Positions 3,274-34,119 of a stretch of DNA of 34,119 nt are shown here, piece after piece. The stretch's first letter is position 1; each line of letters begins with the position of its first letter. This DNA is from Anaerolineales bacterium (GTDB taxonomy: Bacteria; Chloroflexota; Anaerolineae; Anaerolineales; UBA11858): NCBI GenBank assembly GCA_016783125.1, contig JADHXE010000012.1, forward strand, positions 1 to 34,119, given 5' to 3'. The notes under the pieces are model-generated. The model did no database searches and was not told where the DNA came from. It worked only from the letters and a program-made list of their open reading frames with translations. Made by a program: the position numbers and the translations under genes.

Positions 3274-3308
3274 GGGTGCGTTTCATTCCAGTGGAATGAA
3301 ACACACCC
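3274..3308. repeat. Compact palindrome (outer hairpin, unfilled copy)
   Basis: Arms 3274-3290 and 3292-3308 (gggtgcgtttcattcca / tggaatgaaacacaccc) match over 16 of 17 positions with almost no loop. It lies between the response regulator and HD-GYP genes. A near-identical sequence at 6005-6114 is split by about 75 bases carrying a second hairpin. Confidence 0.8.
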
Positions 3309-3311
3309 ATA

Positions 3312-3764
3312 TTATTCAATAGGCTGGTTGAGCAACAACCAATAGAGGCCAATCTGTCGTACGGACTCAGTAAACTGCTCGAAATCGACCGGCTTGACGA
3401 TATAGCTGTTAACGCCCAGGTTGTAGCTCTTTTCGATATCGTGGTTTCGATCTGATGATGTCAGCACCACCACTGGGATAGCTTGGGTATGCAGGTCGGA
3501 CTTGATGCGCTCTAACACTTCTAAGCCAGAAACTTTTGGGAGCTTCAAATCCAGCAAGATCACTTTTGGCAAGTCAGCCATTTCGAGATCGGCGTACTCC
3601 CCTTCGCAAAATACATAATCCAAAGCTTGGGCGCCATCCCGCACAACCTGAATATGATTAGCCAGGTTGTGCTTCTTCAGCGCTCGCAAGGTCAGTTCTT
3701 CATCGTTGGGATTATCCTCAACCAGTAAGATCTCCACCGGCTGTTTATAACTTTGCTCACTCAC
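3312..3764 (-). CDS. Single-domain response regulator, Rcp1-like
   Basis: 150 residues forming one receiver domain. It has E16/D17 in VEDNPND, the phosphoacceptor D72 in VILLDLKLP, VVVLTSSD, and the conserved lysine in YIVKPVD. The ED-NP-D-E signature and the absence of an output domain match regulators paired with phytochrome-type kinases (Rcp1-like), which act by protein contact or phosphotransfer. The start is a GTG at 3764 preceded by GAGGAGG at a 6-base spacing, and it overlaps the stop of the upstream kinase gene by 8 bases. That implies translational coupling and makes the kinase its likely partner. The same frame stays open to 4061, but that part overlaps the kinase C-terminus and is not expected to be translated. 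Confidence 0.93.
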   Translation of the reverse strand: MSEQSYKQPVEILLVEDNPNDEELTLRALKKHNLANHIQVVRDGAQALDYVFCEGEYADLEMADLPKVILLDLKLPKVSGLEVLERIKSDLHTQAIPVVVLTSSDRNHDIEKSYNLGVNSYIVKPVDFEQFTESVRQIGLYWLLLNQPIE

Positions 3765-5991
3765 AACTGTCCTCCTCAGGTATCGAAAAATAAAAAGTCG
3801 CTCCCAGGTCAACCTCGGCTTCAGCCCAAACGCGACCGCCATGACGCCGGATGATGCGCTGCACAATGGCCAGGCCCACCCCAGTGCCCTCGAATTGCTC
3901 AACGGGATGCAGACGTTGGAAGACACCGAATAGCTTATCAGCGTATTCCATATCGAACCCCACACCGTTGTCTTTGACGAAATAAACTGTCTCGTCACCT
4001 GAATCTTGCCATCCAATCTCGATTTTAGCATCTTCCCGTTGGCGGGTGAATTTAAGTGCATTGCTGATCAAGTTATGATAGACCTGCTTCATCAGTGAGG
4101 GATCGCCCTGGCAAGGCGGCAGATCGCCAACCTCGATCTCGACAGCGCGCCCCTCCTGTTCTCTTGCCAACTCCTTCAGGGTCTGCTCCACGACCATCCC
4201 AGGATCGATGCGCATCTTTTGGAGCGGCTTACGACCCAGGCGCGAGAGATCGAGCAGGTCCTGGATCAGTTCACCCATATGCTGGGCGCCCTCACTGACC
4301 TTGTCCAGGTAGCGTACAGCCTCAGCGGGTAATTGTTGGGCATAATCCTCCAGCAAGATTTGGGAGAAGCCATCCACCGCCCGCAAGGGAGCTCGCAGGT
4401 CGTGGGAGACGGAGTAGGTGAAGGATTCCAGGTCGGCGTTGACCTGCCGCAGATTACGAGCATTTTCTTCGGCGATTGCGTTTGCGGCGTTCAGATCGCT
4501 CAATAGATTCGACATGCCCAGGTTGAGGCTTTCCACCATTTCTACGCGCTGATTCAGTTCAGTAGTGCGCTGCTCGACCAGCTCCTCCAGATGATCCCGG
4601 TGTTTTGCCAACTCTTCCTCGGCCCGCTTGCGCTCGGTGATGTCGCGCACAACGCTGTGTATGTGCAATGGTTTGCCCCCCGCGTCGCGCACCAGCGCAG
4701 CGGTGATTTCCACTGGAACCGTTGTGCCATCTTTGCGGAGGAAGGTGCGCTCGTATACTGGCAATGTATGCTCACCCAGCAATTGCGCCAGCCTATCAAG
4801 CCCGATTTGCTTTTCTTCCGGAACGATAAAGTAATAAAGCGGCCGACCAATGATCTCATCCACCGGATATCCCAGCATATCGCTGACTTGCGGGTTGACC
4901 TCCATGTGAATGCCATCCAGGCTGATGAGGAACACGGCGTCATTGGTCTGTTCGAAGAGTGCCCGGTAGCGAATCTCGCTCTCCCGCAGCGACTCCTCCG
5001 CCTGCATCCGATTGGTAATATCGCGCAGGGCGGTTATACGGATGCGCTTACCCTTATAATCCGTCATGCGGCCCTGTATTTCGCAGGGAAACGTAGAACC
5101 GTCTTTTCTTAATGCGGTTGCTTCATAAGGTTGTTCATAACCCGACAGCATTTTCTTCATGACCGTGTCACGGTACCCTGGGGCAATCCATTCCGTACCC
5201 GGTCTGCCCAGCGATTCATCTAATGTATAACCGAACATTTTTTCGGCGGCCATGTTTTGTCCTAAACAGATTCCTTTTTCAGATAAAAAGATCGCTTCGA
5301 AAGTGGCGTCGGATAACAATTGATATCGTTCTTCGCTCTCCCGCAACTCCTGCTCTGCTCTCCCGCGTTCAGCAATTTCTGTATGTAAATTCTGATTGGC
5401 GTCGTCTAATTCCTCTCGATGCTTATGCTCCTTCAAGATAGCGCGATGGAACTGGTTGATCGAAAACCACTGCAGGAGCGCTATGCCTGTGGATGTGCCC
5501 CCAACAATGATGATTACTTCAATGATACCCTGAATAGACTCCTGGCTGCGTCCTGCCCCAATGGCAAAGTAAGCCGCCAAACTGAGCCCCAATACGAGCC
5601 AATATACTTTTAGCCCTTGCAACATACTTGTTAGCATGACTGCCAGGATGAAAAAGAGAAGCGATATCATGCCCAAAGGGCTAGTGAAACTAAAATAAAG
5701 CCCCAAGGCAAAAAACAGGATCGGAGGAATGTGCCTGGCAATTTGCCAACGTCCATGATACGCCCACCAGAAACCTGCAATTGTTGGCACGAGCAAAGAC
5801 AGCATAGTGATAATGGCTTCTAATGGGAACGCGCCAGTAATCCATCCAACGACAATCGGTATGGTGAACACAGTCAAAGCGATTCCCTGCATAAGTAGAA
5901 TCACTCGCGTCATATATTCGCGGAGCGCGTTATCCGGATCGTTAGCAAACGGCGTAGTCAAACGCGTCCACAAGTTCTGAAATCCGTTCAT
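3757..5991 (-). CDS. Membrane PAS-PAS sensor histidine kinase
   Basis: 744 residues. Residues about 28-190 hold roughly six hydrophobic helices, forming an integral-membrane input module. Two PAS domains follow (about 225-335 ending ALRDITNRMQAEE, and 345-465 ending SVVRDITERKRAEE), then a coiled coil (about 470-515). The HisKA segment carries the phosphorylatable histidine in SVSHDLRAPL, and the HATPase_c domain has N box NLISNALKFT, DNGVGFD, FQRLH and GTGVGLAI. All catalytic boxes are present, so it should be active. The start at 5991 was chosen because AAAGGA precedes it; the open frame to 6072 would be encoded by an intergenic hairpin. It is third in its operon and overlaps the response regulator gene. 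Confidence 0.93.
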   Translation of the reverse strand: MNGFQNLWTRLTTPFANDPDNALREYMTRVILLMQGIALTVFTIPIVVGWITGAFPLEAIITMLSLLVPTIAGFWWAYHGRWQIARHIPPILFFALGLYFSFTSPLGMISLLFFILAVMLTSMLQGLKVYWLVLGLSLAAYFAIGAGRSQESIQGIIEVIIIVGGTSTGIALLQWFSINQFHRAILKEHKHREELDDANQNLHTEIAERGRAEQELRESEERYQLLSDATFEAIFLSEKGICLGQNMAAEKMFGYTLDESLGRPGTEWIAPGYRDTVMKKMLSGYEQPYEATALRKDGSTFPCEIQGRMTDYKGKRIRITALRDITNRMQAEESLRESEIRYRALFEQTNDAVFLISLDGIHMEVNPQVSDMLGYPVDEIIGRPLYYFIVPEEKQIGLDRLAQLLGEHTLPVYERTFLRKDGTTVPVEITAALVRDAGGKPLHIHSVVRDITERKRAEEELAKHRDHLEELVEQRTTELNQRVEMVESLNLGMSNLLSDLNAANAIAEENARNLRQVNADLESFTYSVSHDLRAPLRAVDGFSQILLEDYAQQLPAEAVRYLDKVSEGAQHMGELIQDLLDLSRLGRKPLQKMRIDPGMVVEQTLKELAREQEGRAVEIEVGDLPPCQGDPSLMKQVYHNLISNALKFTRQREDAKIEIGWQDSGDETVYFVKDNGVGFDMEYADKLFGVFQRLHPVEQFEGTGVGLAIVQRIIRRHGGRVWAEAEVDLGATFYFSIPEEDSCE

Positions 5992-6004
5992 GGCATTATC
6001 CTTT

Positions 6005-6114
6005 GGGTGCATTTCATTCCAGTGGAAGTAATCCCGGAAATAGGGGTGTGCGGGGGGTGTCCCTCCCCGCACACCCCTATTTCCGGAACTTTTCCGCTCG
6101 TTTGAAACACGCCC
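6005..6114. repeat. Nested hairpin: a long stem-loop inside a split palindrome
   Basis: The inner hairpin has perfect 22-base arms at 6034-6055 and 6065-6086 with a 9-base loop; its outer ends read CCGGAAATAGGGG / CCCCTATTTCCGG. It is bracketed by 6005-6027 and 6103-6114, which match the left half (22 of 23) and right end (11 of 12) of the intact palindrome at 3274-3308. The extra material is about 75 bases (6028-6102). It occupies most of the gap between the kinase-less sensor and the histidine kinase genes. Confidence 0.85.
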
Positions 6115-6130
6115 TTATCTTTTTTACTTA

Positions 6131-8743
6131 TCATCGCGAAATAGGCTTCCCCAGTGGATCATCGGCGACCGGGGTCATGCCAGCACCTTCGAGCTGGGCG
6201 CGCAGCTTTTTGATGACCTTCTTCAACTCGGCCATGCGGATCTCGCGTCCAGCCGTCAAGTTGACGAAATTCTGCAATTCTTCGGTACGCTGCTGGACGC
6301 GTTTTTCTATTTCGTTGCTGTCCTGGATGATGCGCTCATATAAGCGGGCATTGTGAATGGCCTGGGCTGCCTGGGCCGCAAATGGCCTCACCAAAGCGGC
6401 TTGCTCAGGCGAGTAGGCATCGGGTTGGACGCTTTCGAGGGTCAAGAAGCCAATCAAGGTGTCGCGGGCGATCAGCGGAATGCCCATCCAGCTTGCTATA
6501 TTCTCGGACTGGCCCCAATTCTGGAAACGAGAATCATCTTTAACGTTATTCAATATAAGCGGTTCACCCGTTTGTTGTAGCTTTTTAAAAAGTTCATTTT
6601 CACCGGGGAAAACATGCCCTTTGACCGATGGCGTGATACCGCGATCGACCACCACAGGCAATGCATCCTCTTCATGCAAGAAAATGGCTCCGCTATCAAG
6701 GGGCAGCACTTGTCCGATCTGATCGAGAATGAGTTCCAGCACGTTATCTAACTCCAAGGATGTGGATAGCGCCACCGTGACGGTATTCAGCGTTTCCAGT
6801 TGGTGGACATGCCGCTGAACTTCCCCATATAAACGGGCATTGTTAATCGCGACGGCAGCCTGGTCGGCAAGCAATTCCAGAATGTGCAGTTCGCTTTTGC
6901 CAAATTCATACGCTGTATGCATGGCGACATTCATCACCCCTACTACCTGATCGTCGCGGAGCAATGGTAATCCCACAATGGCGCCCTCCAGCGGCCAATC
7001 CTGAAAGATGGGGCTGTCACTTATATCGTTGACGACCATGCGGTCTCCACTGCGGGCGACCGAATACGTCAGTCCATTTTGGCGCGGTTCGGCAAAGGGT
7101 TCTGCCTGACGGCCATCTGCCCAGCGCACAGCACCGAAATTCAGCGCCTTGCCATCATAGGTAAAAATATGGGCGTCATCAGCAGGCACCAGTTGCAAAA
7201 CATATTCCAGAAGCGCATCAAAGACGACCTGCAACGACAGATTGGAGGTCAGGCTCAGGCTGGCCTCGCGCAGCGCTTCGAGATGCCGAGTATATTGCTG
7301 CAAGGCGACCTCAGCTTGTTTGCGATCCATGATCTCACGTTGGGCCGTTTCGAATAATTGCGCATTATCCAACGCCACTGCAACTTGATTTGCCAGAGTC
7401 ATTGCCAGATCGAGTTCCTGATGAGTGAATTGGATTTCTTTCTCCCAGGCTTCTAATTCAAGAATGCCGATAATCCGGTCTTTCACTTTTAGCGGGAAAA
7501 CAACCAGAGTGAGAGTTTCATATTCTTTCATGAGTGCCAATTCTGCCGGATCAGCATCCGGTTCGCTGGCTTGCACTACCAATGGCTCAAATGATTCCAT
7601 CACCTTTGCCGTAGCCGGATAATCTTCGAGCAGGATCGTTTTCCCCATCCAGCCGGAATCAACGTACTCCCCATCTTCATCATAGTAATAATCCACTATT
7701 GTTTTTAGTGTGCCTTTGCCGGGGTCGTAGAGAGAGACAGAGCATTCGGGAAGACCCATGACATCTACAAATTGTTGGGCCACCAGCATTGCAATTTCAT
7801 CGGTTTTGAGAAGAGTCCGGGCCACCGATTGGCTGAAGCGATTGAGCATCGAGAACTCTTCTAACCGCACCTGGATTTCTTCCTGCGCCTGCACCCGCTC
7901 GGTGATATCGCGTGTAACCCCCAGGATCCCCACCGGCTGGCCATCCGGGTCACGCAGGAAGGAGGTTGTAACCTCTGTCCAAATTGTGTGACCATCTTTA
8001 TGCCGTTGTTCAAGTTCCATCACTCGCGACCAAAATGCTTCTCTTGACCGTGTCTGCTCTGCGACCAGTTCTTCTTCAAAAACCTTTACAGCAATTTCAA
8101 AGGAGGCCGGGGTCAATATTTCGGCCAATGACAGGGCCATGGCTTCATCGACGCTGTAACCCCCGATACGCGTAACGGAGGGACTCATATACGTGAAACG
8201 GAGGCTCATATCCATCATCCAGATGAGATCCGTTATATTCTCAGCGAGCAGACGGTAGTACGCCTCACTCTCCCGCAACGCTTCCTCGGCCTGCACCCGC
8301 TCGGTGATATCGCGCGCCACAGCCACTAAACCCGCATATTCATCACCGTCCATCAGCGCAGATAACTTCATGGCGTACCAGCGCGGGCCGCCCGGCATTT
8401 CCAATTGATATTCATAACCGGCTGTTTTGCCCCGTTTCACTTCTGGTAAAGCCGCCGCGAATAATTCATCGATATGCGCTGGCATGACCTCTGCGTGCGT
8501 TTTGCCAAAAAATCCATCCGGCGGCAGATAAAGTTCACCCTCCGGCGAATAAGTGAACACGAAGCAATTGTCCTGGTCGAGGACGAAAACTAAATCATCC
8601 ATCGTCCGGAGGATACTACGGAGTTCATCCGCGTCCGTGCGCAGGGATGGCCTGCTTCCGACCCCCTGCATTTCGTCCATCCGTTGACGAAGTTCCACCA
8701 ACTCATCGATAAGCTGCTTTTTGGTTTTTCGTTCATCCTTCAT
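6131..8743 (-). CDS. PAS-PAS-GAF-GAF-GAF sensor protein without kinase domain
   Basis: 870 residues, no signal peptide or membrane helix. A short N-terminal coiled coil (KKQLIDELVELRQRMDEM) is followed by two PAS domains (about 45-165 and 170-290, each ending in VARDITERVQAEE or VTRDITERVQAQE). Three GAF domains lie at about 305-480, 495-650 and 665-810. The C-terminus is a coiled coil with QQRTEELQNF, NLTAGREIRMAELKK, KLRAQL and PVADDPLG. No HisKA, HATPase, GGDEF, EAL or HD motif is present, so it is a sensor or scaffold only. Position upstream of a full kinase suggests it feeds that kinase, but this is inference. ATG 8743 was chosen because CAGGTGA lies 6 bases upstream; the frame to 8821 overlaps the small ORF in another frame. 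Confidence 0.9.
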   Translation of the reverse strand: MKDERKTKKQLIDELVELRQRMDEMQGVGSRPSLRTDADELRSILRTMDDLVFVLDQDNCFVFTYSPEGELYLPPDGFFGKTHAEVMPAHIDELFAAALPEVKRGKTAGYEYQLEMPGGPRWYAMKLSALMDGDEYAGLVAVARDITERVQAEEALRESEAYYRLLAENITDLIWMMDMSLRFTYMSPSVTRIGGYSVDEAMALSLAEILTPASFEIAVKVFEEELVAEQTRSREAFWSRVMELEQRHKDGHTIWTEVTTSFLRDPDGQPVGILGVTRDITERVQAQEEIQVRLEEFSMLNRFSQSVARTLLKTDEIAMLVAQQFVDVMGLPECSVSLYDPGKGTLKTIVDYYYDEDGEYVDSGWMGKTILLEDYPATAKVMESFEPLVVQASEPDADPAELALMKEYETLTLVVFPLKVKDRIIGILELEAWEKEIQFTHQELDLAMTLANQVAVALDNAQLFETAQREIMDRKQAEVALQQYTRHLEALREASLSLTSNLSLQVVFDALLEYVLQLVPADDAHIFTYDGKALNFGAVRWADGRQAEPFAEPRQNGLTYSVARSGDRMVVNDISDSPIFQDWPLEGAIVGLPLLRDDQVVGVMNVAMHTAYEFGKSELHILELLADQAAVAINNARLYGEVQRHVHQLETLNTVTVALSTSLELDNVLELILDQIGQVLPLDSGAIFLHEEDALPVVVDRGITPSVKGHVFPGENELFKKLQQTGEPLILNNVKDDSRFQNWGQSENIASWMGIPLIARDTLIGFLTLESVQPDAYSPEQAALVRPFAAQAAQAIHNARLYERIIQDSNEIEKRVQQRTEELQNFVNLTAGREIRMAELKKVIKKLRAQLEGAGMTPVADDPLGKPISR

Positions 8744-11445: not shown

Positions 11446-11499
11446 CCCGAAAATAGGGTGTGCGTGCGCTTTGCGACCCACGCACACCCTATTTTCGGG
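11446..11499. repeat. Long perfect hairpin of the dispersed family
   Basis: Perfect 21-base arms at 11446-11466 and 11479-11499, with ends CCCGAAAATAGGGTG / CACCCTATTTTCGGG and a 12-base loop. It lies 12 bases after the GH25-like stop and could act as a terminator. Confidence 0.85.
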
Positions 11500-25812: not shown

Positions 25813-25865
25813 CCGAAAAATGGGTCTGCTTGGGGGCTGTGCCCCCAAGCAGACCCATTTTTCGG
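25813..25865. repeat. Long perfect hairpin of the dispersed family, terminator-like
   Basis: Perfect 25-base arms at 25813-25837 and 25841-25865 around a 3-base loop. The outer ends are CCGAAAAATGGGT / ACCCATTTTTCGG. It lies 11 bases after the PQQ-lipoprotein stop and 33 bases before yidC. It could terminate or attenuate transcription between them. Confidence 0.85.
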
Positions 25866-33054: not shown

Positions 33055-34065
33055 TCAAGGTAATGTGCCCAACTCATTCAATAATTTCACCAATTCCGTA
33101 GCTAGCGCGTCATGTTTATCGATACCGATATGCCCGTCGTACATGTACCCTCCCCCTACATTGCCAATACTTATCAACGCGAGTATATCTGCCTGATTTA
33201 GTACCGCCATAATTGCTTCTACCTCAGCAACCTCCTCATCCGTTACAATGATGATTGGTATTCTTGATTCCTCCGCTTTTGCAAGGATGTAGGTCAGTGG
33301 TTCTGTTTCCTCAACCCATTTAGAAGCGTACGACTCTACTACTACTTCTGCTGCTTCTTCAGCGTTTCTGCGGTCGCGGATTTCCCGCCAGGCCAGCGTG
33401 AAATAGCGCCAGAAGTGGAACCTGCTCAAGAATACCCTGACAGATTTTGGAATAAATCTCGCAGCATCTTCTTTGTATTTATCCACCAAATACCCATTTT
33501 CTACATCATGATTATCTGGGGGCTGCCAATCGTTATCAACCAGATACAAAACTATCGCAGAAATATCAGGGTATAACTCTGTTAGTTCGTCATACACGGA
33601 TTGATAATGCCAGAGGTTCCAGCCAGGAGATGAGGCATTTACCGTACGGATATCATAGCCAAGTTCATGAAGCCGTGTTTCTGTTTTATATACAAAGGTT
33701 TCTTCGGTCGTGACCATCCAGCCGAAGGTTTGCGAATCGCCAATGAATAGAACCACCTGATCATCATCCTGGGGGTAATCATCACGTGCTAAAACCCTAA
33801 AACCATTGGGGTCTGTGTAAAACACCTCGCCATTTTGGTATAGCTCCCCATTGCTTTTAAAACGATGTGCAAGCTCCGAGTCTTCTACGTATGGCTCTGG
33901 TTTAATGATGTAATCTGGGAAAGGCAAAAAGATCGCCAATCCGGCCTCAACGATGATCAACCCTACGAAGAGAGAAACCAGGGCAATGATTAGATTTCCC
34001 CATATTGTTTTTTTATTGGACGATTTTTTCTCAGTCATAAAAACAAAAGGTAACTGCTCAGCCAT
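33055..34065 (-). CDS. Membrane-anchored SGNH/GDSL-like hydrolase family protein
   Basis: 336 residues if the start is at 34065; ATG 34038 (MTEKKSSNKK) is equally possible, and neither has a clear ribosome-binding site. One N-terminal membrane helix (IWGNLIIALVSLFVGLIIVEAGLAIFLPF) anchors the protein, with the rest outside. Block I of the SGNH fold is FIGDSQTFGW (nucleophile Ser). A later N is in VNASSPGWNLWHYQS, and DGHIGIDKHDALA near the C-terminus could supply the catalytic histidine. Such anchored SGNH proteins often modify exported polysaccharides by adding or removing acetyl groups. It converges with the glycosyltransferase gene, 17 bases apart, hinting at a cell-surface polysaccharide region. 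Confidence 0.75.
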   Translation of the reverse strand: MAEQLPFVFMTEKKSSNKKTIWGNLIIALVSLFVGLIIVEAGLAIFLPFPDYIIKPEPYVEDSELAHRFKSNGELYQNGEVFYTDPNGFRVLARDDYPQDDDQVVLFIGDSQTFGWMVTTEETFVYKTETRLHELGYDIRTVNASSPGWNLWHYQSVYDELTELYPDISAIVLYLVDNDWQPPDNHDVENGYLVDKYKEDAARFIPKSVRVFLSRFHFWRYFTLAWREIRDRRNAEEAAEVVVESYASKWVEETEPLTYILAKAEESRIPIIIVTDEEVAEVEAIMAVLNQADILALISIGNVGGGYMYDGHIGIDKHDALATELVKLLNELGTLP

Positions 34066-34076
34066 GGAACGGATTA

Positions 34077-34119
34077 CCCCGAAAAAAGGGTATGCGCAGG
34101 GGGCTGCGCCCCCTGCGCA
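34077..34119. repeat. Hairpin of the dispersed family, cut by the window end
   Basis: It begins CCCCGAAAAAAGGGTATGCG. The inner stem 34093-34104 pairs perfectly with 34108-34119 around a 3-base loop. The outer right arm should continue beyond the window. It lies 12 bases upstream of the SGNH start. Confidence 0.7.

Follow-up and report, generated by a model that had tools for sequence, protein, structure and literature searches.

The question raised by this locus is whether a small hairpin has moved into the loop of another palindrome, or whether palindrome and hairpin belong to one mobile unit. In the window, as we call the whole 34,119-nt stretch of DNA that was analysed, a palindrome at 3274–3308 (17-nt arms with one mismatch, 1-nt centre) recurs in split form at 6005–6027 plus 6103–6114, with one mismatch in each half (against 3274–3296 and 3297–3308, respectively). 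The halves are separated by 75 bp (6028–6102), and a perfect hairpin with 22-bp arms lies within them at 6034–6086. The first-pass annotation had described these features, and their positions are confirmed here. Both sites are part of one cluster of signalling genes that are all read leftward. The annotation went further: it took the two sites as the empty and occupied forms of one target, into which the hairpin had moved without a visible target duplication.

The cluster consists of genes for a PAS/GAF protein (6131–8743, minus strand, start codon approximate), a PAS histidine kinase (3757–5991, minus strand), a response regulator (3312–3764, minus strand) and a GAF/HD-domain response regulator. 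The PAS/GAF gene lies upstream of the split palindrome, whose end at 6005 is 13 nt from the start codon of the kinase gene; the short palindrome is 3 nt from the stop codon of the response regulator gene. No orthologs of the operon were found in the six other genomes of the genus, where the best match reached about 70% across 227 aa in a single GAF region, nor in named genomes (best segment 45%), and pre-insertion alleles therefore cannot be read in the genomes compared.

The split palindrome and its contents form a unit of 110 bp (6005–6114). On the plus strand it begins with a left terminal repeat, GGGTGCATTTCATTCCAGTGGAA (6005–6027), and ends with a right terminal repeat (6088–6114) that includes an inner part, the CTTTTCCGCTCGTTTGAAACACGCCC region, which is missing at 3274–3308. 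Between them lies the hairpin, with arms CCGGAAATAGGGGTGTGCGGGG (6034–6055 and 6065–6086), a 9-nt tip and the 17-nt core CCGAAAAWWGGGGTGTG. The predicted RNA fold of the 110-nt unit (MFE −78 kcal/mol, z = −12) is far beyond chance, and the unit codes for no transposase. It is flanked by two 9-bp direct repeats, TTATCCTTT (5996–6004) and TTATCTTTT (6115–6123), which agree at eight of nine positions, whereas no 9-bp duplication was seen at the borders of the inner hairpin. The first-pass annotation saw no target duplication; the repeats were missed because they are located outside the outer palindrome. Read on the minus strand, the left duplication gives AAAGGA beside the point where translation of the next gene starts.

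Searching the genome of the window (4.33 Mb, 318 contigs, 88% complete) with BLAST, we found about 40 distinct copies of the 6005–6114 region, which share its end points. About 1 Mb of this genome was read directly, in stretches picked partly for holding copies; unless stated otherwise, element counts refer to this sample, in which genes were called by a simple codon-usage script. When 30 copies were aligned, most of them began and ended at identical bases, GGGTGYRTTTCA...TGAAACRYRCCC, and most were flanked by 9-bp direct repeats, for example TAATCAATA, AAATGAAAT and TAATGTTAT. Among 90 candidate shells of this type, designated S1 (30–170 bp long, some of them chance matches), 47 had a 9-bp duplication with at most one mismatch, compared with 0.6% at shifted positions. 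As the duplications flank full shells, outer palindrome and inner hairpin travel jointly, as a single element. With its 110 bp, multiple copies, lack of coding capacity, common terminal inverted repeats (about 24 bp, imperfect inward of the outer 12 bp) and 9-bp target duplication, the element is a MITE, and 6005–6114 is a complete copy of it.

At two loci (L029:1364-1629 and L042:1392-1621) two S1 elements were seen adjacent or nested, with an exact 9-bp duplication around the outer pair. In a 748-kb sample, 6 of 16 scored S1 elements with this type of hairpin lay between divergent genes and none between convergent genes, numbers too small to show a preference. Some ISKra4 elements are said to insert upstream of promoters (PMC3942029).

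A candidate source of the transposase was seen in a sister genome. There, an element of 1,648 bp (G001:C102:2523-4170) has ends matching those of S1 and is bordered by an exact duplication of 9 bp (ATATGATTT). It contains a single long reading frame, whose product scored 259.5 bits against the NCBIfam model of the ISKra4 family transposase (curated cut-off 205); Pfam gave no match for it. A 46% homologue is present in another genome of the set, G006. ISKra4-type elements are reported to have inverted repeats of 18–39 bp and direct repeats of 8–9 bp, and the family belongs to the Mutator superfamily, p-MULT 4 (PMC3942029); the repeats and duplications of S1 fall within these ranges. S1 thus resembles ISKra4-family insertion sequences in its ends and in the 9-bp duplication of the sister-genome element, and differs from them in having no coding capacity and in carrying a hairpin, which was not seen near the ends of the autonomous element. 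The shared ends and duplication length suggest that S1 is mobilised by an ISKra4 transposase. Against this, the assembly to which the window belongs, which is 88% complete, yielded no match to such a transposase.

What, then, is the palindrome at 3274–3308? This 35-mer, whose predicted fold is also stable (−25.6 kcal/mol, z −8.6), corresponds to the outermost 23 and 12 nt of a complete element. Its own genome holds no second 35-bp copy at up to three mismatches, and it has no target duplication in its flanks, CAGGCCATA and ATATTATTC, which share nothing with those of 6005–6114. A looser pattern retrieved three short shells in this genome, namely the 35-mer, a 36-mer and a 53-bp copy, and none in six congeners. 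The 36-mer (contig C203; L118:5753-5788) lies inside an exact 9-bp duplication, TAATCAAAC. The 53-bp copy at C1 has kept half a hairpin between the repeated flanks GATCAATC and TAATCAATC. Similarly, a 77-bp copy (L130:10402-10478) with an exact target duplication, TAATCAAAT, contains half a hairpin, and its junction is at a CCCG found on both sides in full copies. Further shortened copies inside duplications measure 68 bp (L001) and 55 bp (L140:2071-2125). The 77-, 68-, 55- and 36-bp copies, all within target duplications, indicate that interiors were lost in place, and for this reason we interpret the 35-mer as most likely a relic of deletion, an S1 copy that has probably lost its interior. 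Since it has no duplication, either a flank has changed or two copies have recombined.

These findings bear directly on the proposal that the hairpin itself is mobile and inserts into the loops of palindromes, with 3274–3308 as the empty and 6005–6114 as the filled site. The exact-looking outer match between the two sites speaks for it, as do the presence of core hairpins in several shells and the lack of a recognisable shell around 10 of the 77 core-like hairpins sampled. However, the full form is multicopy and the 35-mer a singleton; the target duplications flank the outer palindrome rather than the hairpin; and half-hairpin copies within target duplications indicate loss. Moreover, the right inner repeat at 6088–6102 is present in the 110-mer and missing from the 35-mer, so that insertion of a hairpin into the 35-mer could not have produced the 110-mer. 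The filled form is therefore not the empty form plus a hairpin unit, and two sites without common flanks are not alleles of each other. We saw no event of hairpin insertion, and consider this explanation very improbable; the reading as an empty and occupied pair is given up.

A different origin of the 35- and 36-mers, fold-back copying of one transposon end by template switching at a small inner palindrome (TTCCAGTGGAA), seems unlikely to us. It would account for two short shells that each form a near-perfect palindrome of one end and are joined at almost the same point, which random deletion does not predict, and no microhomology is evident by eye at the junction of the 35-mer. On the other hand, the 36-mer lies within an exact 9-bp duplication, the remaining short forms have simply lost internal sequence, and one position in the right-hand 12 nt of the 35-mer is not what straightforward copying of the left end would give. 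Even so, the deletion reading is weakened by the same near-identity of the two junctions and by the missing target duplication of the 35-mer, whose own history could also be explained by recombination of two copies or by fold-back of one end.

The broader idea of separable parts is nevertheless supported, and the annotation was partly right in this: one shell holds several interiors, and one core occurs in several shells. S1 shells with duplications contain at least three interiors: the hairpin of the window (type A, 28 copies), a GCGTATT-type palindrome (B, 16 copies) and a further palindrome, CCTCCCGCAGGTT (C, 3 copies). B-type palindromes without an evident S1 shell were noted at L105:6820-6875 and L131:3795-3840, and the B interior, like A, may be an independent dispersed repeat. 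The A core is also found in two other shells of the same genome, S2 (NNGGACTTACGCA...) and S3 (GTAACTGCTCAGCC...); a sizeable share of the seemingly solitary hairpins belong to such other shells. The shells that share the core differ in their ends and in the length of the duplication, which is 9 bp for S1, 5 bp for S2 and about 8 bp for S3. The 5-bp duplications of S2 were seen in three of six elements in this genome and in 9 of 21 candidate pairs in relatives, and no exact 5-bp match occurred at any other offset tested. For S3 the examples are few (such as CAACGAAC and TCAGGATT). A fourth shell with the A core, S4 (AAGTAGATTTTGGAAAG...), is present in the sister species G005, where the length of the duplication is not readable. 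We also noted a MITE family, S5, with ends TTGACAATGTCACATT, a long hairpin CGAAATTTGGGGGTGCGAGCGGGG and 4-bp duplications in four of five cases (L121:9097-9207, L119:6932-7042, L123:18852-18980); its hairpin was excluded as the same cassette, as the similarity of its arms was not above that of shuffles.

The arms of representatives of S1, S2, S3 and S4 are more alike than block-preserving shuffles (0–31 of 3000). In addition, five of the seven genomes in the genus contained the 17-nt core, with 10 to 155 hits and none for the reversed control, and outside the genus there were single hits in 2 of 144 other genomes of the order. The shared interiors and shells, together with this near restriction to the genus, make exchange of the hairpin between elements, or its repeated capture, likely on the basis of sequence comparison. 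The tip of the hairpin is highly variable and occurs in both orientations (cgctttgcga / tcgcaaagcg; compare L026, L029 and L048 with L036, L045 and L050, and see L052 and L056). Changes in the arms affected both arms identically at 35 positions, the pattern that copying of one arm from the other would produce, and one arm only at 38. Fast-changing tips and correlated arm changes may point to copying between elements by template switching at the hairpin.

The main rival to exchange is convergence: the MITEs would possess bidirectional intrinsic terminators independently of one another, and the likeness of the cores would reflect their function. Many copies do have the shape of A4–6, a GC-rich stem and T4–6, and a GC stem with a T-run on both strands is found in many S2, S3 and shell-less hairpins; several of the shell-less ones lie 7–30 nt past stop codons, and the hairpins of S5 show no significant similarity to core A. 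The similarity of the S1–S4 arms above shuffles and the near confinement of the core to one genus argue against convergence, as does the window hairpin itself, which has a weak T-tract (TATTTCC and no more) and went unreported in the terminator scan (the loop limit of the scan is 8, the hairpin loop 9). Nor were core hairpins enriched between convergent genes (5 of 47 scored, compared with 17% of intergenic bases), so that their position does not prove terminator function. Taken together, we regard convergence as rather doubtful. As a tentative alternative, to which we give somewhat more weight while still holding it short of probable, the hairpin could be a GC-rich, exchangeable terminator-like cassette of at least four unrelated shells, copied by template switching and perhaps insulating both the element and the genes beside it against read-through transcription.

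Other hairpins of this kind were noticed in the window. Long perfect or near-perfect hairpins of the form GAAAA...GC stem...TTTTC lie at 580–635, 11446–11499 and 25813–25865, two of them 10–11 nt past a stop codon, and that at 11446–11499 may be a decayed S3 element. At its right end (34046–34119) the window stops within an element of S3 type (ggtaactgctcagcc...CCCCGAAAAAAGGGTATGCGC...). Repeats of this sort also form the beginning or end of several further contigs, for example C166, C69, C88 and C203, and for this reason the hairpins probably break the assembly.

Our overall reading, which we hold with good confidence, is that 6005–6114 is a non-autonomous ISKra4-type MITE, that the 35-mer is a deletion relic and that interiors have been exchanged between shells. 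An ISKra4-family transposase supplied in trans would recognise the ends of about 24 bp and insert the whole 110-bp unit, the inner hairpin being moved along as part of it. Insertion at the junction of two signalling genes would duplicate 9 bp and leave a sequence resembling a ribosome-binding site on the downstream side. Long perfect palindromes provoke deletions. The palindrome at 3274–3308 would remain from another S1 copy after deletion of its interior, including the hairpin, and over longer times hairpin interiors may have been swapped between unrelated MITE shells in the genus.

The claim of a hairpin insertion is thereby replaced by a tested transposon unit with its ends, duplications and an autonomous ISKra4-family relative. 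This raises the question of why one core, nearly confined to a genus, occupies several unrelated miniature transposons of uncultured bacteria, probably Anaerolineales to judge from the best named protein match; it could serve these transposons as a common terminator or insulator, or be a passenger that was copied from one to another. Precedents exist for small repeats whose interior is optional and for repeats nested in one another, including a terminator-like one. The Correia elements or NEMIS of Neisseria are small elements with terminal inverted repeats, in which an internal segment may be present or absent (lengths of about 107 and 155 bp; PMC2229807). The optional interior is common to them and S1, but in our case a long perfect hairpin fills this place, the alternative interiors number at least three, and there are several shells. 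The pneumococcal BOX, RUP and SPRITE are likewise modular small repeats, one of them terminator-like, and are reported to be inserted into one another (PMC3049150; reviewed in PMC10969869); in our case one core lies inside several distinct shells with terminal inverted repeats, and nested hairpin insertion was not seen. REP and REPIN sequences with their RAYT transposases (PMC3733652, PMC3116915) are also high-copy dispersed intergenic palindromes, whereas S1 has DDE-type terminal inverted repeats and 9-bp duplications; the repeated unit ends in GGGTG...CACCC and does not have the GTAG/CGTC end tag of REP. In the literature searched we found no description of one hairpin core common to several unrelated shells in one genus, and within that literature the shared core is an undescribed variant, while the ISKra4-type MITE with an internal hairpin adds to the elements already known.
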